From: a virus | Strand: one strand, 5' to 3' | IMG/VR virus record: IMGVR_UViG_3300036806_000045 | Coordinates: 1 to 61,059 of that record | Length of the DNA: 61,059 nucleotides | Shown here: piece after piece, positions 18,469-61,059 of the stretch | How positions within the stretch are numbered: position 1 is the first letter of the stretch | Layout of the letters: every line of letters starts with the position of its first letter | Translations under genes and position numbers: made by a program | The notes under the pieces: model-generated | Database searches by the model: none | Seen by the model: only the letters and a program-made list of their open reading frames with translations | What the model was told of the DNA's origin: nothing

Positions 18469-19185
18469 ATGCAAGAGCCACAACATTACGTCTACTTGCA
18501 CCGGCGAGCGACGGATGGCGCGATATTCTACGTAGGTAAGGGAAAGAGAGGACGCGCGTGGAGCGCTAGCGGTAGAAACAGGCAATGGAGATTTGTGCAG
18601 AAGAAACATGGCCACGGAGTGCAGATCATTAAAGACAGGATGCACGAGCCATGCGCACTTGCCATGGAGAGGATTATCATCTTCCACATAGGCCGTCCGT
18701 CTTTGGTTAACCTAGTTGACGGTGGTGGAGGCACGACCGGATGGAGGCACTCCGAAGATACAAAGAAGCGCATCGGAGCATTCAACAAGGGTAAGAAGGC
18801 AACACAGAAAGCGCTTGATGCTCTTGATAGGTTTAGGTTCCAACCACGCACCGAGGCGTGGCGAGCCAACATGAGCGTGGCGGCGAAGGCTAGGACTGCG
18901 AACAGGACACGCTCGCCAGAAACCCGTGCGAAGATTGCCGCTTCTCATATTGGGATGAGACCGTCTCCTGAAACTTTGGAAAAACTTAGAGTGTCACATT
19001 TGGGGAAATGTGGGCGTCTAAACTCCAGTTATGATCACACAATAAGGACTTTTGAACACCCTACTCATGGGATATTTATCGGCACCCAAGGCGATCTGAT
19101 CGCAACCTATAACTTGGGAAGTTCCTGTGTGTCATCGGTAATCCATGGCAAACAGAAGACAGTAAAGGGATGGAGGATAGTATGA
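18469..19185 (+). CDS. GIY-YIG homing endonuclease with NUMOD repeats
   Basis: A 238-residue free-standing homing endonuclease. The N-terminal catalytic domain shows HYVYLHRRATDGAIFYVGKG (GIY-YIG variant) and ALAMERIIIF. It is followed by NUMOD3-type DNA-binding repeats (HSEDTKKRIGAFNKGKK, SPETRAKIAASHIGMRPSPETLEKLRVSHLGK) and a NUMOD1-type C-terminus (GTQGDLIATYNLGSSCVSSVIHGKQKTVKGWRI). Visibly more AT-rich than its neighbours, consistent with recent transfer. Its stop overlaps the next ATG, so it has inserted neatly between two recombination genes. Confidence 0.93.
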   Translation: MQEPQHYVYLHRRATDGAIFYVGKGKRGRAWSASGRNRQWRFVQKKHGHGVQIIKDRMHEPCALAMERIIIFHIGRPSLVNLVDGGGGTTGWRHSEDTKKRIGAFNKGKKATQKALDALDRFRFQPRTEAWRANMSVAAKARTANRTRSPETRAKIAASHIGMRPSPETLEKLRVSHLGKCGRLNSSYDHTIRTFEHPTHGIFIGTQGDLIATYNLGSSCVSSVIHGKQKTVKGWRIV

Positions 19186-20466: not shown

Positions 20467-20806
20467 CGACGCCCCCCGCTGGCTCGACGCAGAAGGCGCC
20501 GCCAAGTACATCAGCGTGAAGCCGTCCTCGCTGCCGCGCCTGGTGCGCGAGGGCCGAATCCCCCCGCCGAACCGCGAACTGGGCGAGCGCCGGCCCCGCT
20601 GGGACCGCCTGGCACTTGACGCGGCGTTCGAGGGCGGCACAGCGTCTACGGACGTGCGGGCGGTATTCCAAGGAGTCGCCGATGAAATTGCGGCCGAAGG
20701 GTCGAAAGGCCGGCCGGGTCGTCAGGCACACTCTGGCAGACGGAACGGCCAAGGAATACCACTACGCCCCGCACCGTCGGGAGCCGAAAGAGCAGATCGG
20801 CGCTGA
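20459..20806 (+). CDS. Excisionase-like (AlpA/MerR-type) HTH protein
   Basis: ATG 20459 overlaps the DUF1937 stop. The N-terminal 55 residues (PRWLDAEGAAKYISVKPSSLPRLVREGRIPPPNRELGERRPRWDRLAL) form a winged HTH of the excisionase or AlpA kind. The last third overlaps the integrase by 125 bases in another frame. Position directly before the integrase suggests a directionality factor. Confidence 0.75.
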   Translation: MPDDAPRWLDAEGAAKYISVKPSSLPRLVREGRIPPPNRELGERRPRWDRLALDAAFEGGTASTDVRAVFQGVADEIAAEGSKGRPGRQAHSGRRNGQGIPLRPAPSGAERADRR

Positions 20807-21671
20807 CAGCCTCCACACGCTGATCGCGGCATTCCAGCGCAGTCCGAAGTGGCGGAATCTGTCCGCCGCCACCCAGCAAAATTACATCCACTACCTGAAA
20901 CCGCTTCACCGCGCCGCGCATGTGCGCGTGACGGAGATCCGACGTCGCGATCTCGTCGCTGTCCGCGATCAGATAGCAGCGTCCCGCGGCGACGGAGCAG
21001 CGATCGGCTTTGTGCGATCGGTCTCGGCGCTGCTGGCGTGGGCGGTCGAGAATGACTGGCTCGAGTACAATCCGGCCCGTGGACTGGCCAAGGACCTCGC
21101 ACACGGGCATCTGCCTGCATGGCGCCCAGAGGACGCCGCCATCGCCATGGAGCGCCTACCGGAGCCTCTGCGGCGGGTGGTCGTCCTGGCGCTCTACACG
21201 GGCCAGCGCCGCGGCGATCTGTGCGCCCTGACCTGGGCGGCGTACGATGGACGCGCGATCCGGTTGACGCAGGAGAAGACGGACGAGCCGCTGGTCATTC
21301 CCTGCCACCCGGAGCTGAAGGCCGAGCTCGACGCGTGGCGGGCAGGACCGGTTGCCGCGCTGCCATCAGCGCCGATCCTGACCGCGCCGGGCGGCAAGCC
21401 GTGGAAGCCCAATCTGCTGTCGCACTACTTGCCGCCCGCGCTGGTGCGCATCGGCCTGTCCAACGAGTTGAATGTCCACGGGCTGCGGAAGCTGGCGGCC
21501 GCGACACTGGCCGAGGTCGGCTGCACGGAAAAGGAAATCGCAGCGATCACCGGGCATAAGACGCTTGGGATGGTGCAGCTCTACACCAAATCTGCCGATC
21601 AGCAGAAGCTGGCCGGCGCCGCGATGGTCCGGTGGATCGGACAAACCGGGACAAATAAACAAAACCGCTAG
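20682..21671 (+). CDS. int: Tyrosine-type phage integrase
   Basis: A 329-residue site-specific recombinase. ATG 20682 has AGGAG seven bases upstream. A SAM-like core-binding domain (about 40-125) precedes the catalytic domain with Arg176 (TGQRRGD), Lys199, His266-x-x-Arg269 (HGLRK), His292 (GHKT) and Tyr301 nucleophile (LYTKSAD). It would integrate the phage into a host att site. It is the last rightward gene before a structured non-coding region. Confidence 0.95.
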   Translation: MKLRPKGRKAGRVVRHTLADGTAKEYHYAPHRREPKEQIGADSLHTLIAAFQRSPKWRNLSAATQQNYIHYLKPLHRAAHVRVTEIRRRDLVAVRDQIAASRGDGAAIGFVRSVSALLAWAVENDWLEYNPARGLAKDLAHGHLPAWRPEDAAIAMERLPEPLRRVVVLALYTGQRRGDLCALTWAAYDGRAIRLTQEKTDEPLVIPCHPELKAELDAWRAGPVAALPSAPILTAPGGKPWKPNLLSHYLPPALVRIGLSNELNVHGLRKLAAATLAEVGCTEKEIAAITGHKTLGMVQLYTKSADQQKLAGAAMVRWIGQTGTNKQNR

Positions 21672-21891: not shown

Positions 21892-22158
21892 TTACTCGGC
21901 ATCGGTGACATCATCCTCAAAGTCTCCATTCTCGATTTGATCGAGTGCCGCGTTGATGACGGCCGCGCGATCCTCTCTGTCACCGGCATTCGGCCCCCAT
22001 GTGGCATGAGCCTGGACAACGCCCATTGCCTTGAAACGTTTGCGTAGCCGATCCTGCTCTGGTGCGGTGGTTCGGTTTTCGTAGCCTATCCATTCCGACA
22101 GCTTGTGAAGCCCCGCGTCGATAGCTTCCTGGTCACGAGGATCGGTGGTTTCAGACAT
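21892..22158 (-). CDS. Small acidic accessory protein A7, 88 residues
   Basis: Last gene of the leftward accessory run. Opens MSETTDPRD, sharing the run's start-proximal motif (GAAACCACCGA just after the ATG). ATGTCTGA overlaps the upstream stop. Helical middle (AIDAGLHKLSEWIGYE, RLRKRFKAMGVVQAHATWG) and acidic tail. No family recognised. Confidence 0.65.
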   Translation of the reverse strand: MSETTDPRDQEAIDAGLHKLSEWIGYENRTTAPEQDRLRKRFKAMGVVQAHATWGPNAGDREDRAAVINAALDQIENGDFEDDVTDAE

Positions 22159-22525
22159 GGGGTTGTTCCAACTTCATAGTGAGACGATAGCCGACGTGGC
22201 CGTCTATGTTGGTCAACCCCTGGCTTGCTGCCCATGTGTCGAAGAACACGCTCTCAGGCCAAGGGACCGGCCCTTCCATGCCGGCGTCCATCCACTGAGT
22301 CATCGAATGCATGACGCCAGCGTGGTATCCGTGCCCAAATCCACCGAACTCACGAATGATCTTGAGCGCAATGCGCAGTCGTATCACCCGCGTTCCAGCG
22401 CGCGCCGCTACACGTTGGTAGTGGACCGGACAGTCGCACTCTCGACCGACCATGCCCAAGCCATTGTGACTGAGTTCGCAGTCGCAGAGATCGAGCGGTT
22501 CGGTGGTTCGGATTTTGTCAGGCAT
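22151..22525 (-). CDS. Accessory protein A6, 124 residues
   Basis: ATG 22525 (MPDKIRTTEP) is preferred over TTG 22534 because AGGAG lies ten bases upstream and ATGCCTGA overlaps the previous stop. Contains CDCELSHNGLGMVGRECDCPVHYQR, a Cys/His set that may bind metal, and FGHGYHAGVMHSMTQWMD. Function unknown. Confidence 0.65.
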   Translation of the reverse strand: MPDKIRTTEPLDLCDCELSHNGLGMVGRECDCPVHYQRVAARAGTRVIRLRIALKIIREFGGFGHGYHAGVMHSMTQWMDAGMEGPVPWPESVFFDTWAASQGLTNIDGHVGYRLTMKLEQPHV

Positions 22526-22721
22526 TAGTTGCAAGCTCCTTCCACGTCCATACGACAGCGGAAGTTGAAAGCATGATTGCGGCGGGAAGGGCCAAGTGCT
22601 GGAATTGGGTCACGCTCAGCAGAAACCAGACAACCCCGGCACCAGTCAAAACGCCACGACATGCAGCCCCGATAAGCCGCGTCTCTCTGCGATAATCATC
22701 GGTGGTTTGGTTTTCACTCAT
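22518..22721 (-). CDS. Accessory membrane protein A5, 67 residues
   Basis: Opens MSENQTTDDYR (run motif). Two hydrophobic spans are likely: GVLTGAGVVWFLLSVTQF and LALPAAIMLSTSAVVWTW, predicting a small hairpin membrane protein. GGAGG precedes the ATG and the ATGA overlaps the upstream stop. Confidence 0.65.
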   Translation of the reverse strand: MSENQTTDDYRRETRLIGAACRGVLTGAGVVWFLLSVTQFQHLALPAAIMLSTSAVVWTWKELATNA

Positions 22722-22891
22722 GGCGCCGCAACCTCCATCTCGTCCCAGCCCAACAGTGAGATGCGATCATCGATGTCACCTAGTAGTTCATCCATCAGGC
22801 CATAACCCGAGAACTCGAATTCCTGATCTGGCACATCATTGACCAGCCGACGCACACGGATGGCATAGGTGATCGTGGTTTTGTCGGTCAC
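22718..22891 (-). CDS. Accessory protein A4, 57 residues
   Basis: GTG 22891 (VTDKTTITYAIRV) is chosen over ATG 22936 because it follows GAGG by eight bases, lies just after the upstream stop, and restores the run's conserved N-terminal motif. Beta-rich start and an acidic end (MDELLGDIDDRISLLGWDEME). Unknown function. Confidence 0.6.
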   Translation of the reverse strand: MTDKTTITYAIRVRRLVNDVPDQEFEFSGYGLMDELLGDIDDRISLLGWDEMEVAAP

Positions 22892-22901
22892 TGACTGATC
22901 C

Positions 22902-23114
22902 TCAAAATGGGGAAGGACTATCGGAGGGGTCCACATAGGACTGCCTCAAGGCGGCGGCTACCGCGTCAGCCTTCTCCCGAGCCATGTAGCCACTGCCCAC
23001 GACTAAAAGCACCCCATCAGGCAGTCGGACATACCACTCCGTAGTGCCGCCCATCTCGCCAGCGATGTGCCGATGGCACACAACGGCAGCGGTGGTTTTG
23101 GGGTTAGCCGGCAT
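22902..23114 (-). CDS. Accessory protein A3, 70 residues
   Basis: Opens MPANPKTTAAVVCHRH (run motif). GGAGTG upstream; start overlaps the previous stop. Core GTTEWYVRLPDGVLLVVGSGYMAREKADAVAAALRQ reads as a small beta-beta-alpha domain. No family recognised. Confidence 0.65.
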   Translation of the reverse strand: MPANPKTTAAVVCHRHIAGEMGGTTEWYVRLPDGVLLVVGSGYMAREKADAVAAALRQSYVDPSDSPSPF

Positions 23115-23331
23115 TGTATTTCACTCCATGCTTCTTGCACCACGCTCGACTGCCGCAGAACAATTCGCTGTTTCGGTTCGGGCATTCCCAGTCGCACTCC
23201 TCGGAGCCCGCCTTGAGGCATTGGCCATCCGGCATGAGGCCACAATCCTCGTAGCCGTCGCCGTCTTCTTCATCCCAATCGCGAGGGTCATCGTCGTAAT
23301 ATTCCGGCTCCGCGGTCGTTTTGTCGGTCAT
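23104..23331 (-). CDS. Accessory acidic Cys-rich protein A2, 75 residues
   Basis: Opens MTDKTTAEPEYYDDD (run motif), with a highly acidic first third, then seven Cys (CGLMPDGQCLKAGSEECDWECPNRN...CGSRAWCKK), suggesting a zinc-bound fold. The acidic surface would fit a DNA mimic or inhibitor, which is speculation. Confidence 0.65.
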   Translation of the reverse strand: MTDKTTAEPEYYDDDPRDWDEEDGDGYEDCGLMPDGQCLKAGSEECDWECPNRNSELFCGSRAWCKKHGVKYNAG

Positions 23332-23894
23332 GACGTTTTACCTTCTGCCTTCGAGATCGCGGCATCAATCACATCGGCTATCCACTGATGTGGCAGATCG
23401 ATCTTGCCTTCTCGGTCCGCCTTCTGTACGGCCAATAGCGCATCCAGTAAGTCTGGCGCGGCGGCGATGAGGCGCGCGTTTGCGGCATTGTCGATCAGGT
23501 CCGCAATCATGCCGTCTCGCATCGCTGGGACAATCATGTTGATGTTGCCCGTGTGGAATATGGCCCACGGCCCTGGGGTTTCACCCTCAGCCTCTGCTAT
23601 GGCGGCATGAGCCAAATCAAACTCGGCTGTCTTGCGGTCTGCCACGCTTACAACGGCCCGGAGCGCCGCCAGCAGTTGAGGCGCTGTAGCCATTAGGCGC
23701 GCCGCCACCGAGTCTCCCAGGTGCATTCTCGCAAGCGCTTCAGTGAGCGCGCGGGTAATATTCATTTCGCGTTCGGTCGTCCGTGGAGAATGCCCTGGAC
23801 ATTCAATCCAGTCGCATCCGCCTTCGCCAGCTTTGCGCCCACAATGTGAGCAAGCGTCGTTGACCGTGAGTAAGTCGGCGGTCTTCTCACTCAT
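23328..23894 (-). CDS. Accessory protein A1 with internal duplication, 188 residues
   Basis: Opens MSEKTADLLTV (run motif). N-terminal Cys cluster CSHCGRKAGEGGCDWIEC may bind zinc. Two copies of a helical unit follow: RLMATAPQLLAALRAVV...AAIAEAEGET and RLIAAAPDLLDALLAV...AAISKAEGKT. The ARLIAAAPDLL box is widespread in small phage proteins. The start overlaps the serine recombinase stop (ATGAGTGA). Confidence 0.7.
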   Translation of the reverse strand: MSEKTADLLTVNDACSHCGRKAGEGGCDWIECPGHSPRTTEREMNITRALTEALARMHLGDSVAARLMATAPQLLAALRAVVSVADRKTAEFDLAHAAIAEAEGETPGPWAIFHTGNINMIVPAMRDGMIADLIDNAANARLIAAAPDLLDALLAVQKADREGKIDLPHQWIADVIDAAISKAEGKTS

Positions 23895-24513
23895 CGGATT
23901 TTCCTTTCTCGGCGAGCGCTCGATCGCGGGCCTTGATGAAGCCGGAGACAGTCAAGCCTGCGGCGCGAGCGCCAGGCTTCGTGCCCAGCTTGGCGAACTC
24001 CAGGATGGCGTCAGACGTATGCTTCCGAGCAGCGCCGCCCACCCTGCCCTCGGACCGTGCCCGAGCCAGCCCGGCCATGGTGCGCTCTTTGCCGATGCCC
24101 GCCTCGAACTCGGCGAACACCGCCAGCATCCCGAACATCGCCCGGCCCATAGGCGTCGAGGTATCCATGCCAGGCGTCGTCAGGACCCGCAGATTGGCGC
24201 CCTTAGCCTGGATGTCCTGCGAGGTCTGGTAGAGCTGCATGGCATTCCGGCCGAGCCTGTCCAGCTTCCAGATCACGACGGTATCGCCTTCGCGCACGTC
24301 CTTCATCATCGCCTGGAACTCGCGCCGCTTTTTGATGCCGGTCCCGCTCGCCTTCTCCCAATATATGTCGCGGGCGTCCACGCCGGCTGCTACAAGGGCA
24401 TCAATCTGCAATTGCGGATTTTGGTCGGCCATGGACACTCTCGCGTAGCCTATTAGGTGCGGTTCGGCCGGCGGTTCGGGTTGCGATTTCCTGTTCGATG
24501 CAGATTTCGACAA
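23887..24513 (-). CDS. Small serine recombinase (resolvase/invertase family)
   Basis: A 208-residue site-specific recombinase. LIGYARVSMADQ carries the nucleophile Ser27, and WKLDRLGRN supplies the catalytic Arg pair, with GTGIKKRREFQ upstream. The catalytic domain is followed by the long E helix (FAEFEAGIGKERTMAGLARARSEGRVGG) and a short, somewhat degenerate HTH (GTKPGARAAGLTVSGFIKARDR). It heads the leftward accessory run and is distinct from the tyrosine integrase. Role could be resolution, inversion or cassette exchange; no invertible segment was identified. Confidence 0.92.
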   Translation of the reverse strand: MSKSASNRKSQPEPPAEPHLIGYARVSMADQNPQLQIDALVAAGVDARDIYWEKASGTGIKKRREFQAMMKDVREGDTVVIWKLDRLGRNAMQLYQTSQDIQAKGANLRVLTTPGMDTSTPMGRAMFGMLAVFAEFEAGIGKERTMAGLARARSEGRVGGAARKHTSDAILEFAKLGTKPGARAAGLTVSGFIKARDRALAEKGKSDE

Positions 24514-24594
24514 GGCGGCGAAACTTTCTATCTTGACGGTTAACTATACGGGGTATACTTTGACGGTGTCAAGGCGAACCAGCGGTCGATAACG
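24514..24594. promoter_or_regulatory. Divergent control region of the accessory island
   Basis: Leftward promoter: TTGACA (24572-24567), 18-bp spacer, TATAGT (24548-24543), close to consensus. Rightward candidate: TTGACG (24533-24538) and TATACT (24554-24559) with a short 15-bp spacer. A palindrome TATAC-GGG-GTATA spans 24545-24557, overlapping both -10 boxes, and TTGAC-GGT-GTCAA follows. This is a compact site where the recombinase or the RHH protein could repress both arms. Confidence 0.6.
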
Positions 24595-24798
24595 ATGCCC
24601 CACAGACACGGCAACTCATCGAAATATGTTGCGCGTCAGATCACACTCTCGACGGAGATTGACGATGCACTGCGCACCATTTGCGGGCGCGCTGGCAAGT
24701 CGCCCAGCGAGGTGGTGCGCGTCATCCTATCGCGCGATCCGGGCATCGCTAAGTTGCTGCGGCCCGCGTCGAACGATCTGATGGCCGTTCCTGAATAA
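24595..24798 (+). CDS. Ribbon-helix-helix regulator
   Basis: A 67-residue protein with ARQITLSTEIDDALRTICGRAGKSPSEVVRVILSRDPG, an RHH (Arc/MetJ-type) strand-helix-helix. Divergent from the serine recombinase across a palindromic promoter region, so autoregulation of the island is likely. First gene of the rightward accessory run. Confidence 0.75.
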   Translation: MPHRHGNSSKYVARQITLSTEIDDALRTICGRAGKSPSEVVRVILSRDPGIAKLLRPASNDLMAVPE

Positions 24799-24824
24799 CC
24801 CCCCTAGACCCCGGAGCGAAATTG

Positions 24825-24986
24825 ATGCCGCAATTGATCGGTGACAACTGGGTTAGAACGCCGACTGAAGCGGACGAAATGCGGCGACAGTGGAAGCGCT
24901 GGTATCTCCAGAACTTGCCGACGAACGATGAGCTACAGGAACTTGTCGAGTGGGCGAAACGTCGTTCCGCTCAGAATGCAACGTAA
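24825..24986 (+). CDS. Accessory protein B2, 53 residues
   Basis: MPQLIGDNWVRTPTEADEMRR... through EWAKRRSAQNAT. Mixed charge, Trp-rich (DNWV, QWKRWYLQNLP). Preceded by GGAG and a CCCC-containing boundary, followed by the run's boundary motif. Function unknown. Confidence 0.6.
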   Translation: MPQLIGDNWVRTPTEADEMRRQWKRWYLQNLPTNDELQELVEWAKRRSAQNAT

Positions 24987-25000
24987 CCCCGGTGAGAGAA

Positions 25001-25192
25001 ATGGCCCGCGAAGATCTACACTTCGACATGATGAACGCGATGACCGACGTGGTTCTCAGGCGCGTTGAAGGCTGCATCAAAAACCTGCGCGCTGATACGT
25101 CGGCCGTAGCCCATGAACATCAGGTCGGGTTCGAGGCTGGCTATCGTGCGGCAAAAGTCGCCATGCTCGACCTGCTTGCCGATTGCACCTAA
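25001..25192 (+). CDS. Accessory protein B3, 63 residues
   Basis: Begins right after boundary AACCCCGGTGAGAGAA. Helical (MAREDLHFDMMNAMTDVVLRR...HQVGFEAGYRAAKVAMLDLLADC). No family recognised. The ATG matches the position fixed by the repeated ribosome site GGTGAG. Confidence 0.65.
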   Translation: MAREDLHFDMMNAMTDVVLRRVEGCIKNLRADTSAVAHEHQVGFEAGYRAAKVAMLDLLADCT

Positions 25193-25206
25193 CCCCGGTG
25201 AGTGAG

Positions 25207-25479
25207 ATGACGCAGTTCAATGACATCCCGACTGGTCCGCACTTCGCAATCCTCGGCCAGACTTCGGTGTATATACCTGGCGATGAGCGTTCGAGAACGC
25301 ATCCTGGGCACGGCTATCCGGCCAGCACTGAGTACTACATCACCTATCGCGCTTTCACGGACCGCGCCGAATGGGAGTGCGAGATTGAGCACTTGGCGGC
25401 GCGTGGCGACAGCTTCCGAGCCATCGTGGTCACTCCAGCTAAAGTGACCACTTCGACATCCGTCACAGTGAACACCTAG
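25207..25479 (+). CDS. Accessory protein B4, 90 residues
   Basis: Start at ATG 25207 is set by boundary motif AACCCCGGTGAGTGAG. Contains IPTGPHFAILGQTSVYIPGDERSRTHPGHGYPASTEYYITYRAFTDRAEWECEIEHLAARGDSFRAIVV, a compact beta-rich domain. A second strand-helix unit ends the protein. Unknown function. Confidence 0.65.
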   Translation: MTQFNDIPTGPHFAILGQTSVYIPGDERSRTHPGHGYPASTEYYITYRAFTDRAEWECEIEHLAARGDSFRAIVVTPAKVTTSTSVTVNT

Positions 25480-25497
25480 AACCCCCCGGTGAATGAG

Positions 25498-25740
25498 ATG
25501 GACACACGACATATGCAATTCGCGCACCCAGAATCAGCGGTGCCGGTAGCAGTTCAAAAGTTCGCAGATGTCGGACCTGGCCAGTGGTGGTTCGTCCATC
25601 ATCCTGACGGTTTCCTTATCGAATGCGCAACCGAGGTGCGAGCTAAGCAGATAGCCTACGAGATCAATGCAGGACGATCGTCGATGCAGGCGAGGGATGC
25701 GATGGTGCCGTTTAGACCTCACATTGACCCAATATCCTAG
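25498..25740 (+). CDS. Accessory protein B5, 80 residues
   Basis: Start at ATG 25498 after AACCCCCCGGTGAATGAG. GPGQWWFVHHPDGFLIECATEVRAKQIAYEINAGRSS resembles the beta-beta-alpha layout of accessory A3 (YVRLPDGVLLVV...AREKADAVAAAL), suggesting distant relatedness between the two arms. Unknown function. Confidence 0.65.
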   Translation: MDTRHMQFAHPESAVPVAVQKFADVGPGQWWFVHHPDGFLIECATEVRAKQIAYEINAGRSSMQARDAMVPFRPHIDPIS

Positions 25741-25760
25741 AACCCCAAAGGAGAAAGGCG

Positions 25761-25928
25761 ATGGACTTCAACGCATGGCTGAACGAACTGAACGCAGAAT
25801 CGAAGCGCCGCGGTTATGCGGGCGCCGATGAGTTCTGGCAGGGCACGGGAGCCGACTGCTGGCGCCCTTCCTACGATGATGGCATGACGCCGGTAGACGC
25901 TCTCGCTGATGACGCGTCCTACCTCTAA
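25761..25928 (+). CDS. Accessory protein B6, 55 residues
   Basis: ATG 25761 follows AAAGGAGAAAGGCG, a stronger and different ribosome site from its neighbours. MDFNAWLNELNAESKRRGYAGADEFWQ then an acidic end. A small soluble acidic protein of unknown function. Confidence 0.6.
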   Translation: MDFNAWLNELNAESKRRGYAGADEFWQGTGADCWRPSYDDGMTPVDALADDASYL

Positions 25929-25953
25929 CCTAGAACCCGGTGAGGAACTGACA

Positions 25954-26148
25954 GTGAGTAAGATTGTCCAGATCGCAGTGATGAACTTGGCCGAAGAGCG
26001 CACCGCTGAAGGCGTTGGCATCCGAGAGGGCGGGGACCTGCTATTCGTTCTGACCGACGACGGAAAGATTTGGGAGCGGTTCAATCGTCGTGACTGGGTG
26101 GCCGTCCCCTCGCCTCCCGGCACTGACGGATTCCAGCCCGTATCGTAA
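25954..26148 (+). CDS. Accessory protein B7, 64 residues
   Basis: GTG 25954 after GGTGAGGAACTGACA. Core LLFVLTDDGKIWERFNRRDWVAVPSPP resembles beta-propeller-like single blades seen in small phage proteins. Upstream in-frame ATG 25909 lies within the previous gene and lacks a ribosome site. Confidence 0.6.
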   Translation: MSKIVQIAVMNLAEERTAEGVGIREGGDLLFVLTDDGKIWERFNRRDWVAVPSPPGTDGFQPVS

Positions 26149-26176
26149 AGCCACCCCCTAACCCCGGATTATCACG

Positions 26177-26647
26177 ATGCACGAAGACTACGATGACATT
26201 AGGTCTAAGATCGCACAGGCGCCACAATGGTTCGATGAGTATGCTGTGCCTCGCTATTGCACCTTTGAGCCGAAGCGATGCGCTGATATCTATTGTGATG
26301 AAGCGGTATTGGCCGAGATTACTTGCCAAGGCTGTGGGGCGGAATTCCGTGTGGCATTTAGCCAAGGTAGCTTTGACCGCTTCGGACGCGACGGCCGCCG
26401 TCTGGCGGATGACATTCGTGCGCGCGAATTGCATTATGGAGATCCGCCAAATATCCGCTGCTGCGCGGCGGGTCCGACTATGAACAGTGAGCCTCGTCGC
26501 GTGTTGCAGTACTGGCACACACACCACAAAGAATACGTCGGCGAGAATGGCATCGTCACTGACATGGCGTATTTCGACTGGCGGCGAGATCCAACGCTGG
26601 AAATCGAAATCGAGCCGGAGTGGGTCTCCGGCGGACGTGCCCTCTAA
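26177..26647 (+). CDS. Accessory protein B8, zinc-ribbon-like, 156 residues
   Basis: Largest gene of the rightward run. Cys/His pattern CADIYCDEAVLAEITCQGCGAEFRVAFS...NIRCCAAGPTM suggests a zinc ribbon; later HTHHKEYVGENG and an acidic EIEIEPEW tail. ATG 26177 follows an AACCCCGG boundary. No family recognised. Confidence 0.7.
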   Translation: MHEDYDDIRSKIAQAPQWFDEYAVPRYCTFEPKRCADIYCDEAVLAEITCQGCGAEFRVAFSQGSFDRFGRDGRRLADDIRARELHYGDPPNIRCCAAGPTMNSEPRRVLQYWHTHHKEYVGENGIVTDMAYFDWRRDPTLEIEIEPEWVSGGRAL

Positions 26648-26661
26648 CCCCGGCGAGTGAG

Positions 26662-26733
26662 ATGAGTGAGATTATCGACGCGATCAGGCTGGCAGACCGA
26701 GTGTTGGATAAGCCATACATTGGAGGCGCTTGA
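26662..26733 (+). CDS. Short ORF after boundary motif, possibly truncated
   Basis: ATG 26662 sits exactly on boundary motif AACCCCGGCGAGTGAG, and MSEIIDAIRLADRVLDKPYIGGA reads like a real N-terminus, but the frame stops after 23 residues. The following frame continues with coherent helical sequence, so this is probably the front half of a frameshifted gene. Confidence 0.45.
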   Translation: MSEIIDAIRLADRVLDKPYIGGA

Positions 26734-26740
26734 GGAAAGC

Positions 26741-26872
26741 GTGAAACTTCAAAGCCATTATGCCAGCATTCTAAACATGCACGACGGCGGTGAGCGGTTG
26801 CAGTTCGAGACTGCTCGTGATTGGCTTGACCGGCTCCGCGCCGTTCGTTCCGCAACGACTGAAACTGCCTGA
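26741..26872 (+). CDS. C-terminal half of last accessory gene, or separate small ORF
   Basis: Forty-three residues from GTG 26741 (preceded by GAGGA): KLQSHYASILNMHDGGERLQFETARDWLDRLRAVRSATTETA. The helical frame is open from 26666, and joins the preceding 23-residue ORF by a single frameshift around 26715-26730. It ends 8 bp from the convergent late operon with no visible terminator. Confidence 0.5.
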   Translation: MKLQSHYASILNMHDGGERLQFETARDWLDRLRAVRSATTETA

Positions 26873-26880
26873 ACCCCCCC

Positions 26881-28974
26881 CTACCGCGTAAAACCCACCT
26901 GAGCGAACTTGAACTCGGTCGCGCCGGCACTTTGAACCGCCGCTGTGTCGACGCAGAACTTCATGGCGTTGGTCGGGGACCGGTTCGCATCCATCCAAGC
27001 GCGCGCCGTAATCGCGTTCGGATCGGCAATCGCGTCGATCAGTGCTCCGAGGCTCCCATAACGCAATGCCGCATAGGCAGGATCGCCCCCGGTGATCTGG
27101 TCGACGGGCGGCTGGTTGTTCGGGTCGGCCAGCCGGATCGTGGCTAACGTCGGCCAATCCGATGCGAGCGTCCCAGTTGATCCGGTGAGCGTCAGCTGGT
27201 AGGGCCACGCGCCCTCAACGGGGTACCCCAGATTGCGGAACGGCCCGGACAGGAAGCTCGCGGTCTCCGCCAGCACGTCGGCGCACTCCATGCCGAGCCT
27301 GTGCATCCAGGCCAGCACCATCGCGTAGTAGTCGACCTGCCACATGGGAATACCGGCCCACACGGCGCCGCTCGATAGCTGCCCTGGGATCAGCGCCAGG
27401 TCTCCCTGGAACGGCCTGGCGAACGCCATATAGTCGCGCAACGCCACGATGTTGCCGGCGACGATCGTCCGCAGCGCGGTCGACAGATAGCGGGCATCCG
27501 GGATCAGCGCGGCACCGAGCATCAGCGTTCGGAGTGACCACGCCATCGCGCGGGTTTGGCCGTTGCCCACGGTGAACGGGAGCGCCGACGCGTTGGATGT
27601 CGGAAAGCTCACGACGATGGACCTGTTGCCGTGATCGTCCACCTGCGTTGACTGCGTGGCCGCAGCCTGGGCCTCCAGGTCATCGAGCCACATGCGCCGT
27701 CCCGTCAGATACCACGGAACCGCCGCAGCACAGCCAGCGTGCGCGCTGTCGATCGTCCAGCCGTTGCCCTGCGAGAGCTGCTGGATCTGCTGGCCAGGGA
27801 AGTCCGTTGCCGAGAACCACTTGCCACTGGCCCGGTCGCGTAGATGCCACGGCACGGCGCCGAAGCCGCGCAGCATCGGCAGCGTGGCCAGATAGGCGCC
27901 TGGATCCTGGGAGATTAGCCAACTCGCGACTGGACCGGGCATGGGGCCTATCTCGTCGCGGTCGCCGGTCGACGGGAAGTATCGCGTCACACCACCATCG
28001 GCCAGTGGCGCGATCGGTGGCCATGCCGAAACGGGAATTCCCGTAACGCCCAGATCGTCCCGGTGGATCATCAGGCCGCACTGTCGTAGCAGCTGTGTGT
28101 CAAACATCGGATGGACCGGCTGCTCGTTGACCGTATGCCGCCAGACCTGGCCTAGCGCATGGGTGTTGCCCTGCGAGAAGCAGAACAGGCCGGAGTAGCG
28201 CGCGTGGTTGAGGGTGAAGGTGTTTGTCGGTGGATCGAACGCGGTCAGCTCTACGTCAGGCTCAAGCGAGTAGCCGTCAGCACGTAGGGCCGAGACGCCA
28301 GTGTTGATTATTGGAACACCGTTCACTTTGCCGATGACGGTTGCCGTGGTGCCGACAACGTTGGCGATAAAGGAGCAGCCATCCAACGAGTACGAAGCAA
28401 TCTGTCCCTCACCTTCGATTCTCACGTCGTAAGAGAGGTTCGGCACCAACGCTGGCGCGGCAGTGCCGATGTCCACCAGCGAGCGGGAGAAGCCCACATC
28501 CACGCGGGTCGGGGTGCCATCACGGAAGCAGGCCACGTCAACCACAAGCTCGAAGTCAGGCGATAAGTCGGGAACCGGGATGTAGACGCGACCCTCCGTC
28601 ACGAGCGGCCCGTTGCGCCATGGATCATTTTGCCAACTGCCTTGCAGTGGGATGGTGATGGGAGCTGCACCAGCTACGGCGATCGTAACCACCGCGTCGG
28701 TCACCAGGGCAAGAGGCGTCCCTACAAGTGCCCCACCAACCGTCAAATCCCCCGGCGCCCATTCGCCCATCGCCAGCGCTGGCACTTGCACCGCGACGAG
28801 GGCGTGCTTGACGCTGCCGTCTGGGCGGCTCTGCAGTACGTCCACCTGCGCTGGCTGGTTGCCTATCAACAGGCCAGCGCCTCGTGGCAGAAAGCCGGGC
28901 AGGAACGGATGCGCGAACGTGACGGTGCGCGGCTGGGTGGGAACGTCGAAGGGGTGGAAGGCTAGGAATGTCAT
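26881..28974 (-). CDS. Large virion-associated protein, possible polysaccharide-binding or lyase
   Basis: A 697-residue protein, last of the leftward late operon. The N-terminus (GNQPAQVDVLQSRPDGSVKHALVAVQVPALAMGEW) resembles the beta-rich first domain of exo-rhamnogalacturonan-lyase-like proteins. The later part is rich in Trp/His/Tyr (DPGAYLATLPMLRGFGAVPWHLRDRAS, QVDDHGNRSIVVSFP, AGIPMWQVDYYAMVLAWMHRLG), the look of an (alpha/alpha) toroid. It ends with FKFAQVGFTR. Position beside collagen-like and fibre genes suggests surface-glycan interaction; family only tentatively recognised. Confidence 0.5.
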   Translation of the reverse strand: MTFLAFHPFDVPTQPRTVTFAHPFLPGFLPRGAGLLIGNQPAQVDVLQSRPDGSVKHALVAVQVPALAMGEWAPGDLTVGGALVGTPLALVTDAVVTIAVAGAAPITIPLQGSWQNDPWRNGPLVTEGRVYIPVPDLSPDFELVVDVACFRDGTPTRVDVGFSRSLVDIGTAAPALVPNLSYDVRIEGEGQIASYSLDGCSFIANVVGTTATVIGKVNGVPIINTGVSALRADGYSLEPDVELTAFDPPTNTFTLNHARYSGLFCFSQGNTHALGQVWRHTVNEQPVHPMFDTQLLRQCGLMIHRDDLGVTGIPVSAWPPIAPLADGGVTRYFPSTGDRDEIGPMPGPVASWLISQDPGAYLATLPMLRGFGAVPWHLRDRASGKWFSATDFPGQQIQQLSQGNGWTIDSAHAGCAAAVPWYLTGRRMWLDDLEAQAAATQSTQVDDHGNRSIVVSFPTSNASALPFTVGNGQTRAMAWSLRTLMLGAALIPDARYLSTALRTIVAGNIVALRDYMAFARPFQGDLALIPGQLSSGAVWAGIPMWQVDYYAMVLAWMHRLGMECADVLAETASFLSGPFRNLGYPVEGAWPYQLTLTGSTGTLASDWPTLATIRLADPNNQPPVDQITGGDPAYAALRYGSLGALIDAIADPNAITARAWMDANRSPTNAMKFCVDTAAVQSAGATEFKFAQVGFTR

Positions 28975-29141: not shown

Positions 29142-29218
29142 CACGCCACCCTCGGCGCCAGGGTGACGGTGCGCGCGGCGGTGGGTTGGTCGAAGGGGCG
29201 GAAGGCGAGGAAGGTCAT
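29141..29218 (-). pseudogene. Duplicated N-terminal fragment of the 28974 gene
   Basis: Codes for [20 protein letters not shown] followed by five residues and a stop. The start of the large gene at 28974 reads MTFLAFHPFDVPTQPRTVTF, so these are copies of the same 5' end. The fragment is 25 codons and still coupled to its neighbours by overlaps. Likely remnant of a duplication or of an insertion of the small gene 28971-29141. Confidence 0.7.
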
Positions 29219-29529
29219 GGTTTCGTGTCCGGAGGAATGTCCCCCATATCCCAATTCGCGAGCGTCAGAAACACGTGCCACTCGCAGCCGTCAGGTTGTT
29301 CCGGATAATTGGTTCCGCGCTTGTGGTAGAAAGAAGCGGTGACGGTCCCATCGGCGTGTACGTGGTGCAGTCCTATTCCGGTAACGTGACCACAATTGCA
29401 CCGGATCAATGGCTTGAGCGGGCGCCCGGTCCCGTATTCTGTGACTTTGTACCAGCCTGGCTTTCCCACCACTGGGAAATCCTTATAGACACTCTCCCCT
29501 TCGGGCAGCCGCGGAATGATAATGTTCAT
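29215..29529 (-). CDS. Unknown 104-residue protein with CxCxH motif
   Basis: ATG 29529 overlaps the preceding stop. Contains [27 protein letters not shown], a Cys/His-rich beta segment likely to bind metal, and [15 protein letters not shown]. Probably a cytosolic or virion accessory protein; not recognised. Confidence 0.6.
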
Positions 29530-30653
29530 GCGAACCTCGGCGCCAGCGTCCCGCCAGCATTGCTAATCGCCGCAGTGAATGGTGCCGCGGCGAGATTGGT
29601 TGCCACAACAGGCGGCGGAGGAGATGGCGGAGACACGGGCGGAGGCGCCCCCGTCGCGCCACCTGTTCCGGATGATCCGCTCGGCGACGGTTCAGAGCCG
29701 GCACTCAGCGCGGCGATCTGCGCCGCAGTCAGCGTGCCTCGGAACACCATCATCGCACGCCAGCGGCCGGTGAAGGACGGGAACGGCGTCGCCGCGGCGG
29801 GATCGGCGCCAATCGTGCCCCCGTCCGGCGCCGTGGTGAACATGACGTCGCCACCGCCCCAGACCGGGCTGCTATTGCCATCCGTCCGCGTGTCCACGTT
29901 CACGGACAGCGTATCGGGCTGGCCGGCTACCGGCGTGAGAAGCGTCACGCCCATGAACCAAGTGCCGGCGGACACCGAGCCAACAGTCTGTCCGTTCGTG
30001 GCGTTCGGCGAATCGTTGTCCACGCCCTGCCCGCCCGTCGGTGTCCATCGAGTTCCGTAGCCGCTCGCCCAGAGCCAGAACAGCATCCCGTTCCCCGGCT
30101 TGCGGGCGCACAGCCACGTCACGGGATCGTTGCCGTGCGCGATGTCGATGCTCGCGGCGTCCGGGTTGCCGATCCACACGATCGACAGCGGCCCGGCGTT
30201 GACGTTGCGCCACACGCCGTCGCCTGGGGACAGAGCGACAAACGTAGAGGCGTCCAGTTGCAGCGCCTGACCGACAGGCGCGGCCGACAATGCGATCGGC
30301 CCATGAACGGTGCCGTCCTGGCCGTGGCCGCTTTCGTCGGGGATCGTCGTGTCAACGAGTGACGACGCTCGCCAATAGCCGAGCATCGGTGGCCACGCAT
30401 TGGTGCTGCCGCCGCCGGTGTTGGTGGTGCCCGTGGCGCCGGTTGTGCCCGTGCTGCCGGTGGCGCCGGTCGAGCCCGTGCTTCCCGTGGCGCCTATGCT
30501 GCCTGTCGCGCCCGTTGTACCAGTGGAGCCTGTCGAGCCCGTCGCCCCGGTACTTCCCGTGGCGCCCTCGAGTACGGCCACCCGCGCAGTGAGCACATCC
30601 ATCTCAGCAGTCAGCGCGTCGAAATCCTCGATCGTTGGCACATTCACTGGCAT
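29526..30653 (-). CDS. Collagen-like fibre protein with LamG-like domain
   Basis: A 375-residue protein from ATG 30653 (GGAG upstream). A short coiled coil ([20 protein letters not shown]) leads into about 17 Gly-x-Thr/Ser triplets ([13 protein letters not shown]...), a bacterial collagen-like stalk. Then a LamG/concanavalin-like domain ([28 protein letters not shown]...[21 protein letters not shown]) and a Pro-rich linker to a short tip. The trimerising coil, stalk and lectin-like head fit an adhesion fibre. It lies downstream of a strong terminator. Confidence 0.8.
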
Positions 30654-30680
30654 CAGAATCACTCCTTGCATTCACACAAC

Positions 30681-59617: not shown

Positions 59618-61059
59618 TTAGCTGATGGCCGGCGCCCAGCGCACGCCAGTCGCGACGGCAACCGCCTCGTCGTGGCGCATGTGGAAATCGTGCTCCGCAA
59701 TGCCGCGGATCAGGGTCTGATCCGACTGGAACACCGACACCGTGTTGGAATTCGCGTCCACATAGGTGCCTTCACGCGAGACTGCCAGTTCGAGGCGCAT
59801 GCTGTCGAACAACATAGCCTGCCCCATCGCGACCGCATAGATTTCCGAGCAGTCGGAATTGCTGCTGACGGTCAGGTTGATCGGGATTTGCGTGGTAGTC
59901 TTCCACGGCCAGCCAAGGAGCGTCTTCGAAGACGTCATCTCCTCACGGTACACGTAGAAGCCATTGCTGTTCTGCACGTTGAGGAGATAATTCTTCGTGC
60001 GCGGGTGCATGAACCACACGATCTTGTCCATCGGGACATTCGCGGTCTCAATCTTGTTGATCAGACCGCCAAGCTCCGACGCCGCCGTTGCCAGCGTGTA
60101 GCTCGCGTTTGACGTGATGATGTTGCCTGATAAACAGAAGGTCCGGAACCCTTTCGGGCTGTCCGCCGTGCCATCGCCGCGGATGAACGCCAGGTCCTCG
60201 CGGCGGGCGATCACCGCCGCCAGATCATCGCGCACCAGGGCGTCGACGGCCGGATCGGAATAGCGGATCAGGTCGTTCGTGACCGGGGTGAGCGCCGTCA
60301 GCTTGCGATAGGTCGCCACGACCTGACCAACCGACTGCTGACTGACCGGGATTGCCGTGCTCTCGCCGCCGTAGCTCGCGGTCGCTGCCTGCGTCTGGCG
60401 GGGCATATTCATCGTGCCGCGCGGCATCTCGATCATGCGAGGCCCGCTGTCGCGGACCACGGCCATGGGTCGCAGGACCTCGATCAGTTCCGCCACATAG
60501 TCCGGCGGAACGATAAAGCCGCCCGAGGCGCCTATTGCCAGGTTCATGGCACGTTGATCTGGCGCGGCGCCGGACCAACCGCGAGTGCCGTGCAGCACTT
60601 CGGTCACGGGATGCCGTTCGCCGAGAATTTCAGTCGCAGCTGAGCGGGCCGCATAGATGTTGCCGCCGCCCGCCGCCAGCATGCGGCAGATTGCGCCAAT
60701 CACCAGAGACGGCTGCGTCTCATGGTCCGGCTTGCGTGACCGGGCTTCCGAGCGCTGCGCGGCTGGCTTGCGACTGCGGTCCGTGTCCGCGTCGCTATCG
60801 ACCGGCTGGGCCAAGTCCTTCTCGATGCCGATCGCGTCCTCGGCGCGTGTTATACGCGCGTCGTGATCGCGCAGCGTCTCCTCGTGTTCGCCGAGCGAAT
60901 CGTACAACTCGTCGAGCTTGGTACGATCCTCCGCCGGCATATCTTCGCCGTTGGCATCACGCTTCGCGAGGGGAAGAAGTTCCGTCTTGATCGTGCGCAC
61001 CTTGGTCACAAGCGCGGCGCGGTCGCGCTTCAGCGTTGCGACACTGAGTCGCAGATCAC
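59618..61059 (-). CDS. Major capsid protein, HK97-fold (main part; continues at 137-1)
   Basis: HK97-like capsid. N-terminal delta-like region is a charged coil (RTKLDELYDSLGEHEETLRDHDARITRAED). The mature shell starts near SGGFIVPPDYVAELIEVLRPMAVVRD, then LTALTPVTNDLIRYSDPAVDALVRDDLAAVIARREDLAFIRGDGTADSPKG and the E-loop and P-domain (KTLLGWPWKTTTQIPINLTV). The protein runs off the contig end; its true ATG is at 137 of the left end, giving 483 residues in the circle. The GTG at 61009 is internal. Confidence 0.95.
   Translation of the reverse strand, partial: DLRLSVATLKRDRAALVTKVRTIKTELLPLAKRDANGEDMPAEDRTKLDELYDSLGEHEETLRDHDARITRAEDAIGIEKDLAQPVDSDADTDRSRKPAAQRSEARSRKPDHETQPSLVIGAICRMLAAGGGNIYAARSAATEILGERHPVTEVLHGTRGWSGAAPDQRAMNLAIGASGGFIVPPDYVAELIEVLRPMAVVRDSGPRMIEMPRGTMNMPRQTQAATASYGGESTAIPVSQQSVGQVVATYRKLTALTPVTNDLIRYSDPAVDALVRDDLAAVIARREDLAFIRGDGTADSPKGFRTFCLSGNIITSNASYTLATAASELGGLINKIETANVPMDKIVWFMHPRTKNYLLNVQNSNGFYVYREEMTSSKTLLGWPWKTTTQIPINLTVSSNSDCSEIYAVAMGQAMLFDSMRLELAVSREGTYVDANSNTVSVFQSDQTLIRGIAEHDFHMRHDEAVAVATGVRWAPAIS
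60933..61059. repeat. 127-bp terminal direct repeat, right copy
   Basis: Identical to 1-127. Removing one copy leaves a 60,932-bp circle in which the capsid frame is intact. Confidence 0.95.

Follow-up and report, generated by a model that had tools for sequence, protein, structure and literature searches.

The model we propose, which we consider moderately probable, describes the island at positions 21892-26872 as a platform for accessory genes whose start modules are standardised. A single bidirectional promoter would drive two operons, one of them headed by a serine recombinase of the Tn3/Gin type, and each arm would impose its own start module on any small gene within it. The recombinase arm would give its genes a short Thr-Thr tag at the N-terminus, the other arm a leader made of a stop codon, CCCCGG and a ribosome site. 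These arm-specific start modules are the most distinctive feature of the island and were absent from the first-pass annotation of this DNA. From one island to another the cargo is replaced entirely; the hub, the lead recombinase and the modules persist.

The window, that is the whole stretch of 61,059 nt that was analysed, is a complete circular phage genome with an end repeat of 127 bp. The phage carrying the island is temperate. The two-armed layout described from the first reading holds, both in its coordinates and in its gene directions. The left or recombinase arm comprises the small serine recombinase and seven genes, reaches down to 21892 and is covered by ORFs over 99.6% of its length; coverage of the right or other arm is 89.6%. 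When the codon usage of the phage's own long genes was applied to the six frames, all of the main island ORFs ranked first (16/16), including L1 to L7 and R1 to R7 below. The pieces of 26663-26872 are not the best frame (rank 3-5 of 6), and the right arm therefore has, after the RHH-like gene, seven genes that are well supported and one doubtful remnant, in place of the "about nine" tiny genes annotated there. Tail-fibre genes lie just past the right-arm end. The features are as follows.

20682-21671, plus strand: tyrosine integrase (phrog_1, 1.2e-34), converging on the recombinase arm
21892-22158, minus strand: cargo L7, 88 aa, acidic, tag MSETT, converging on the integrase
22151-22525, minus strand: cargo L6, 124 aa, tag MPDKIRTT
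22518-22721, minus strand: cargo L5, 67 aa, hydrophobic membrane type, tag MSENQTT
22718-22891, minus strand: cargo L4, 57 aa, GTG start, tag VTDKTT
22902-23114, minus strand: cargo L3, 70 aa, tag MPANPKTT
23104-23331, minus strand: cargo L2, 75 aa, acidic, Cys-rich, tag MTDKTT
23328-23894, minus strand: cargo L1, 188 aa, start MSEKTADLL (TA variant of the tag), Cys-rich N-terminus, ANARLIAAAPDLL stretch, phrog_1273
23887-24513, minus strand: small serine recombinase, 208 aa, TTG start (PF00239, 1.8e-35; phrog_125, 1.7e-46), heading the recombinase arm
24533-24572, unstranded: predicted interleaved divergent promoters (rightward -35 at 24533-24538, leftward -10 at 24543-24548, rightward -10 at 24554-24559, leftward -35 at 24567-24572)
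24595-24798, plus strand: RHH-like gene, 67 aa, first gene of the other arm, in the window phage only
24825-24986, plus strand: cargo R1, 53 aa, ACCCCGGAG upstream
25001-25192, plus strand: cargo R2, 63 aa, TAACCCCGGTGAGAGA before the start
25207-25479, plus strand: cargo R3, 90 aa, TAACCCCGGTGAGTGA before the start
25498-25740, plus strand: cargo R4, 80 aa, AACCCCCCGGTGAATGA before the start
25761-25928, plus strand: cargo R5, 55 aa, AACCCCAAAGGAG before the start
25954-26148, plus strand: cargo R6, 64 aa, GTG start, AACCCGGTGAG before the start (the motif minus one C)
26177-26647, plus strand: cargo R7, 156 aa, TAACCCCGGATT before the start, phrog_27600
26663-26872, plus strand: intact start module (MSEIIDAIRLADRVLDKP...), then a 43-aa ORF, apparently a frame-shifted or decayed remnant

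The statement that none of the small products matches a known family is nearly right. The exceptions are the 188-aa ORF L1 (phrog_1273, 7e-18) and the 156-aa ORF R7 (phrog_27600, 1e-17), both from families of unknown function, and, weakly, the RHH-like protein, which stays below the Pfam gathering cutoff (RHH_1, E 0.03, 14.7 bits against 20.5) and whose AF2 model, of low confidence (pLDDT 60), has helices and lacks an N-terminal strand. The search for functional matches of the cargo found none, the relatives giving only RMF-like and zinc-ribbon hints. Tiny genes to which no function has been assigned are numerous in phages.

This recombinase recurs in just three further phages of IMG/VR (52-85% identical). 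All three have the two-armed plan and the interleaved promoters, and no cargo gene is shared. The four phages share almost no other genes and their virion genes differ; their cargo shows no homology apart from the tags and from matches that are short or zinc-ribbon-like, and this holds even where the recombinases are 78-84% identical. The turnover of the cargo is thus complete, the opposite of the constant gene set and order by which the cassette interpretation was to be refuted, and no pair is close enough to show the gain or loss of single genes. A cassette platform predicts such complete turnover around a constant recombinase. This part of the earlier interpretation stands, together with the two-armed plan, but the RHH protein as a constant hub does not: it is absent from all three relatives, and a scan of viral contigs found no relative of it. 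Nor is the island separate from the integrase, since it adjoins a related one in the window and, in the same place, in L055 (54% identical). Phages with related integrases or terminases are without the island, and a genome scan for prophage copies gave only two weak and irrelevant Firmicute matches.

The start modules were compared over the four islands and 1903 genes outside them. Thr-Thr occurs within the first 14 residues of 30 of the 41 recombinase-arm cargo proteins; the other arm has 1/26 (Fisher 8e-9) and the outside genes have 97/1903. Conversely, ACCCC stands upstream of 20/27 other-arm genes, where the typical leader is TAACCCCGG directly before the start; the figures are 2/45 for the recombinase arm and 44/1903 for the outside genes. 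Against the outside genes both signatures reach p about 1e-25 or below, the value for ACCCC being optimistic because the motif was chosen after the sequences had been seen. Outside the four islands, neither signature was found at such strength in about 680 operons of the compared loci. A pattern scan with the full other-arm leader matched the L068 contig and, by chance, an AT-rich virus, and nothing else; that with TTGGAGATCA-ATG-ACSACV returned 48 stretches and no new tagged operon past the contigs already known. It could be argued that this is an ordinary accessory region of unrelated small genes whose signatures reflect common ancestry or chance; small-gene clusters are indeed common in phages and short motifs are easily over-read. 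Given these p values, and signatures that are arm-specific in four phages with unrelated cargo, we hold this to be highly improbable.

Two natural comparisons suggest, at the level of sequence, that the modules follow the arm and not the protein family. An RMF-like protein family is tagged in the recombinase arm of L068 and untagged in the other arm of L055. Thermus phages and seven contigs of IMG/VR encode homologues of R7, and the leader motif, present at R7, is absent in all six homologues examined (6/6). The model is further supported by the starts of both arms, which are less folded than those of other genes (p 0.014 and 0.001).

The leader would standardise translation initiation, as proposed for the start-associated sequences (SAS/ESAS) of cluster K mycobacteriophages, in which a short conserved sequence, the 13-bp GGGATAGGAGCCC in the case of SAS, lies just before many unrelated small non-structural genes, is rare elsewhere and is thought to act in translation initiation (PMC3203893). 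The two are alike in having conserved bases shortly upstream of the starts of unrelated genes, but their sequences are unrelated, the TAACCCCGG leader failing to fit the SAS consensus. Furthermore, the island has two arm-specific modules, and one of them, the Thr-Thr tag, is inside the coding sequence.

Both modules might be purely translational elements of the mRNA, the amino acids of the tag being irrelevant, a reading we regard as possible but doubtful. They adjoin the starts, in A/C-rich unstructured regions; ACT is never used for the Thr-Thr codons and the first of them is only ACC or ACG; and GGAGATCA is found upstream of several starts in both L068 and L056. Yet C, G and A all occur at the third positions of these codons, much as in the background, and the tag lies at variable distances of 3 to 11 codons from the ATG; because of this variation, the tag seems to be selected mainly at the amino-acid level. 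A simple anti-folding device was rejected, as in silico deletion of the tag changed the predicted folding no more than deletion of codons 2-8 in control genes (p 0.30). A bolder form of our model, which we put forward tentatively, is that Thr-Thr would be an address tag on unrelated proteins, added to any gene entering the arm and acting on the protein (for example through a common partner or its stability), with an RNA leader in the other arm, the whole forming a standardised platform with two channels, from which interchangeable host-directed genes would be expressed.

The divergent promoter placed at 24514-24594 by the first-pass annotation is borne out by predicted sigma70-type elements in both directions. 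The leftward promoter reads TTGACA-18-TATAGT (11/12 matches), the rightward one TTGACG-15-TATACT, and their spans overlap by 17 bp. With an overlap threshold of 15 bp, none of 2000 dinucleotide shuffles reached the score of the window hub; the hubs of G024, G025 and G026 have the same arrangement, so that the promoters interleave at 4/4 hubs, each matched by at most 2/2000 shuffles. Overlapping divergent elements are the mark of prokaryotic bidirectional promoters, at which one polymerase excludes the other (PMC12825309); the predicted hub shares it, but would drive two multi-gene phage arms and recurs with different sequence in four phages. Since the promoters interleave, only one polymerase would be bound at once and transcription would probably fire in one direction at a time; competition between the arms could therefore follow, which a regulator might bias. 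Expression of the platform would probably be early.

The recombinase itself is, to judge from its substitutions, conserved by selection: between the window and L055 the differences amount to 38% at third and 6% at second positions, and the catalytic residues Ser27, Arg25, Arg86 and Arg89 are invariant across the four phages. Its AF2 model, with helices at 121-154 (the long E helix) and 167-206 (the C-terminal HTH), matches the Tn3/gamma-delta resolvase and Gin (Foldseek matches 5cy1 and 1gdt). The catalytic domain, E helix and HTH are common to this family, but the recombinase stands at the head of an operon and is followed by cargo, and no res, gix or hix-like site was found. Repeat searches and the cross-phage comparison of hubs gave no candidate crossover sites, and no site is shared between the hub of the window and those of its relatives. 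Inverted repeats scoring at least 18 are absent from all four genomes, the window having only chance-like imperfect pairs, and an invertible segment was rejected on these grounds. The similarity to Gin, the match to the DNA invertase family phrog_125 and the neighbouring tail-fibre genes could point to a tail-fibre or other DNA invertase, with ordinary morons beside it by chance. This is very unlikely, given the missing repeats and a recombinase that always heads the arm and stays with it in phages with different tail genes.

An autoregulator and resolvase like TnpR of Tn3, which would bind the hub, repress both arms and resolve phage dimers there, is unlikely rather than implausible. The closest fold is that of the Tn3/gamma-delta resolvase, a divergent gene lies beside the recombinase and the hub is rich in dyads, but the hub is shorter than a Tn3 res site, and the hubs of the window and L055, despite recombinases about 80% identical, show no sequence match. 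This role would be compatible with the platform, as it concerns the recombinase only, which may also be a passenger in the island.

Integrons and other gene-cassette platforms likewise combine a constant recombinase, a tyrosine recombinase in integrons, with variable small genes. The island differs by its serine recombinase, its two arms and the lack of attC-like or palindromic sites. The start modules could be the recombination sites of an integron-like system, as a module is repeated at every gene junction, a 28-nt repeat occurs at two L068 starts and the cargo turns over around the recombinase. However, known small serine recombinases use imperfect palindromes of about 26-28 bp as sites. 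The Thr-Thr module has only a few scattered, codon-periodic conserved positions without dyad symmetry, the modules differ between the arms, so that no recombinase-specific site marks the cassette boundaries, and a comparison of the phages gave no site in common, which makes this possibility extremely improbable. In the platform model, the modules at the gene junctions would provide short stretches of homology that could allow the exchange of single genes.

By analogy, the cargo is most likely host-directed, for takeover or anti-defence. The host takeover module of Bacillus phage SPO1 brings together some two dozen early genes, most of them small, which have strong expression signals and of which several act on host functions (PMC6873191). 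That module has several promoters and operons in a terminal region, whereas the island has one bidirectional hub, a recombinase first and complete cargo turnover. If its modules work as we suppose, they would amount to an insulated expression cassette of natural origin, and the Thr-Thr tag would offer a handle to find cargo genes and to test them as a set. Such a two-armed layout, with a different start module for each arm, is found in only four phages.

The island is best read, and we commit ourselves to this reading, as a platform in which each arm has its own start module: an RNA leader before the genes of the rightward arm and, more tentatively, a protein tag at the N-terminus of the genes of the leftward recombinase arm. 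It follows from the position of the leader outside the coding sequence, and from the codon freedom, the variable spacing and the lack of an excess folding effect of the tag. The window phage is temperate, has contractile-type tail genes (sheath, baseplate, tape measure) and carries an identical 127-bp direct repeat at both record ends (1-127 and 60933-61059), so that the record is most likely a circular complete genome of 60,932 bp. The island lies between two boundaries.

20682-21671, + strand: int, left boundary
26881, - strand: end of the late operon, right boundary

With gene starts called by a simple script, the recombinase arm (- strand) comprises the serine recombinase and seven ORFs (ORF coverage 99.6%), and the other arm (+ strand) an RHH-like ORF followed by seven more and a remnant (89.6%). 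All 16 main ORFs rank best among their own six frames by codon-usage score. The two-armed layout and coordinates of the first-pass annotation are correct for the most part, the exception being the last right-arm genes, since 26663-26872 fails this test. This final gene keeps its start module, is apparently frame-shifted or decayed, and is possibly a cargo gene under loss.

Scanning IMG/VR with the recombinase, and also with a profile built from three sequences, gave only three distinct phages whose recombinase is clearly more than 50% identical across the whole protein; all three have the two-armed plan. The next-best matches reach 48-50% across the catalytic part and lie in a different gene setting.

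Recombinase identity to the window, and examples of recombinase-arm tags
Window: MTDKTT, MSENQTT, MPDKIRTT
L055/L067 (G024): 85% (tblastn), 79-81% over the full alignment; MPDETRTT, MSEAKSETT
L068 (G026): about 57%; MADNPTT, MADNSQTT
L056 and its identical copy L057 (G025): 52%; MAEFQTT

The window terminase has no match in any of these phages, and beyond the recombinase what the window and G024 have in common is limited to int and a few small ORFs. Such arms are absent from seven contigs with a related terminase and, among phages with related integrases, from L225, from the short flank of L226 and, judged by its annotation, from Komagataeibacter phage phiKX2. Because the best named relatives of the window integrase are Komagataeibacter phages, an Acetobacteraceae-like host may be guessed. 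The other arm converges on a late or lysis gene end in the window, L055 and L068; in L055 a tRNA-Arg gene, a likely attachment site, separates the recombinase arm from int. The L068 island has a tRNA-Tyr gene within its other arm (L068 7258-7343).

The proposal of a constant recombinase and RHH gene around changing genes holds for the recombinase and for the cargo, which is different throughout; the RHH gene is absent from all three relatives. No window cargo gene matches the relatives, and in an all-against-all comparison of the cargo of four phages, every pair of which is too distant to show single-gene gain or loss, the only matches fell in tags, in zinc-ribbon-like segments or in stretches that were short and weak, even for L056 and L068 (recombinases 78% identical) and for the window and L055 (84%). 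The recombinase itself is conserved and its change mostly silent (window vs L055: 38% third-position vs 6% second-position differences).

In the tag, the initial M and Thr-Thr are separated by a few residues, most of them polar. Thr-Thr occurs within the first 14 residues of 30/41 recombinase-arm cargo proteins vs 1/26 in the other arm (Fisher 8e-9; shuffled mean 1.6/41), a conservative count, as two further genes with a later called start have it at an earlier one; among genes outside the islands, called on both strands and including spurious ORFs, it occurs in 97/1903 (1.6e-28). The Thr codons are ACC, ACG and ACA, never ACT (the first only ACC or ACG), and lie 3 to 11 codons from the ATG. 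Such freedom at third positions, together with the varying distance, speaks for selection acting on the amino acids. Removing the tag in silico altered predicted folding no more than removing a control stretch did (p 0.30), which leaves a purely structural explanation of the tag weak.

The leader is typically a TAA stop codon, CCCCGG and a purine-rich stretch. An ACCCC-containing leader precedes 20 of the 27 other-arm starts vs 2/45 in the recombinase arm and 0/47 late genes; the comparison with outside genes (44/1903, 7.8e-26) is optimistic, the motif having been picked after inspection, but it was noticed first in the window and then recovered in the relatives. Lying outside the coding sequence, save where it holds the stop codon, the leader must act in RNA or DNA.

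Across 516 operons in the loci examined, the four islands alone have these signatures at high frequency in operons with at least five small genes, and 166 operons in further loci gave no additional signature-rich case. Two natural comparisons suggest that the module follows the arm and not the protein family. A protein resembling ribosome modulation factor (RMF) in the recombinase arm of L068 (12321-12503; 6e-7, above the Pfam cutoff) bears the tag MSPNDTT; another in the other arm of L055 (6440-6640; 0.0028, below the cutoff) is untagged, with AACCCCCGGAG upstream. The other-arm gene R7 (26177-26647; phrog_27600) has the leader, whereas it is missing before the starts of six homologues (39-49% identical) from unrelated phages. 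R7 also has relatives at ~35% in several IMG/VR phages and in the Thermus phages P23-45, P74-26 and G20c; the family is widely scattered, and no match assigns it a function.

In both arms the regions around gene starts are predicted to fold less than those of the phage's other genes (p 0.014 and 0.001), which fits efficient initiation. A 28-nt stretch is identical at two L068 starts, and junction repeats of this kind would give homology for single-gene exchange. The recombinase is an intact small serine recombinase; repeat searches and cross-phage hub comparison found no crossover sites, and the start modules do not resemble sites on which it would act. It could be an autoregulator, a resolvase or invertase, or a passenger.

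In the hub between the arms, two predicted sigma70-type promoters interleave at 24533-24572 (rightward -35, leftward -10, rightward -10, leftward -35), the leftward one with 11/12 consensus matches. The best predicted promoter pair is likewise divergent and interleaved in the relatives, an arrangement matched by few of 2000 dinucleotide shuffles (window 0, G024 1, G026 2, G025 0), although the hubs of window and relatives have no long match in common. At E. coli promoters of this kind, polymerases exclude each other in a way that depends on activation (PMC12825309); such exclusion may also operate at the island's hub.

The leader resembles the start-associated sequences of cluster K mycobacteriophages in its working but differs in sequence (PMC3203893). 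In the size and number of its genes the island is similar to the SPO1 host takeover module (PMC6873191); with integrons it shares only a constant recombinase and variable cargo. The papers searched contain no account of start modules that differ by arm and include an in-frame tag, an absence that is weak evidence.

Elsewhere in the window, a 64-nt direct repeat (80%; 28911-28974 and 29155-29218), at the start of tail gene 26881-28974 and just upstream, reads as the remnant of a duplicated tail-fibre start. A run of 9-nt-spaced repeats (30398-30575) encodes a collagen-like stretch of tail fibre 29526-30671. An ORF matching the phage homing endonuclease family phrog_314 (18469-19185) comes just after the exonuclease gene, and a glycosyltransferase or methyltransferase-like gene (1730-2416) sits between the portal and head protease genes.
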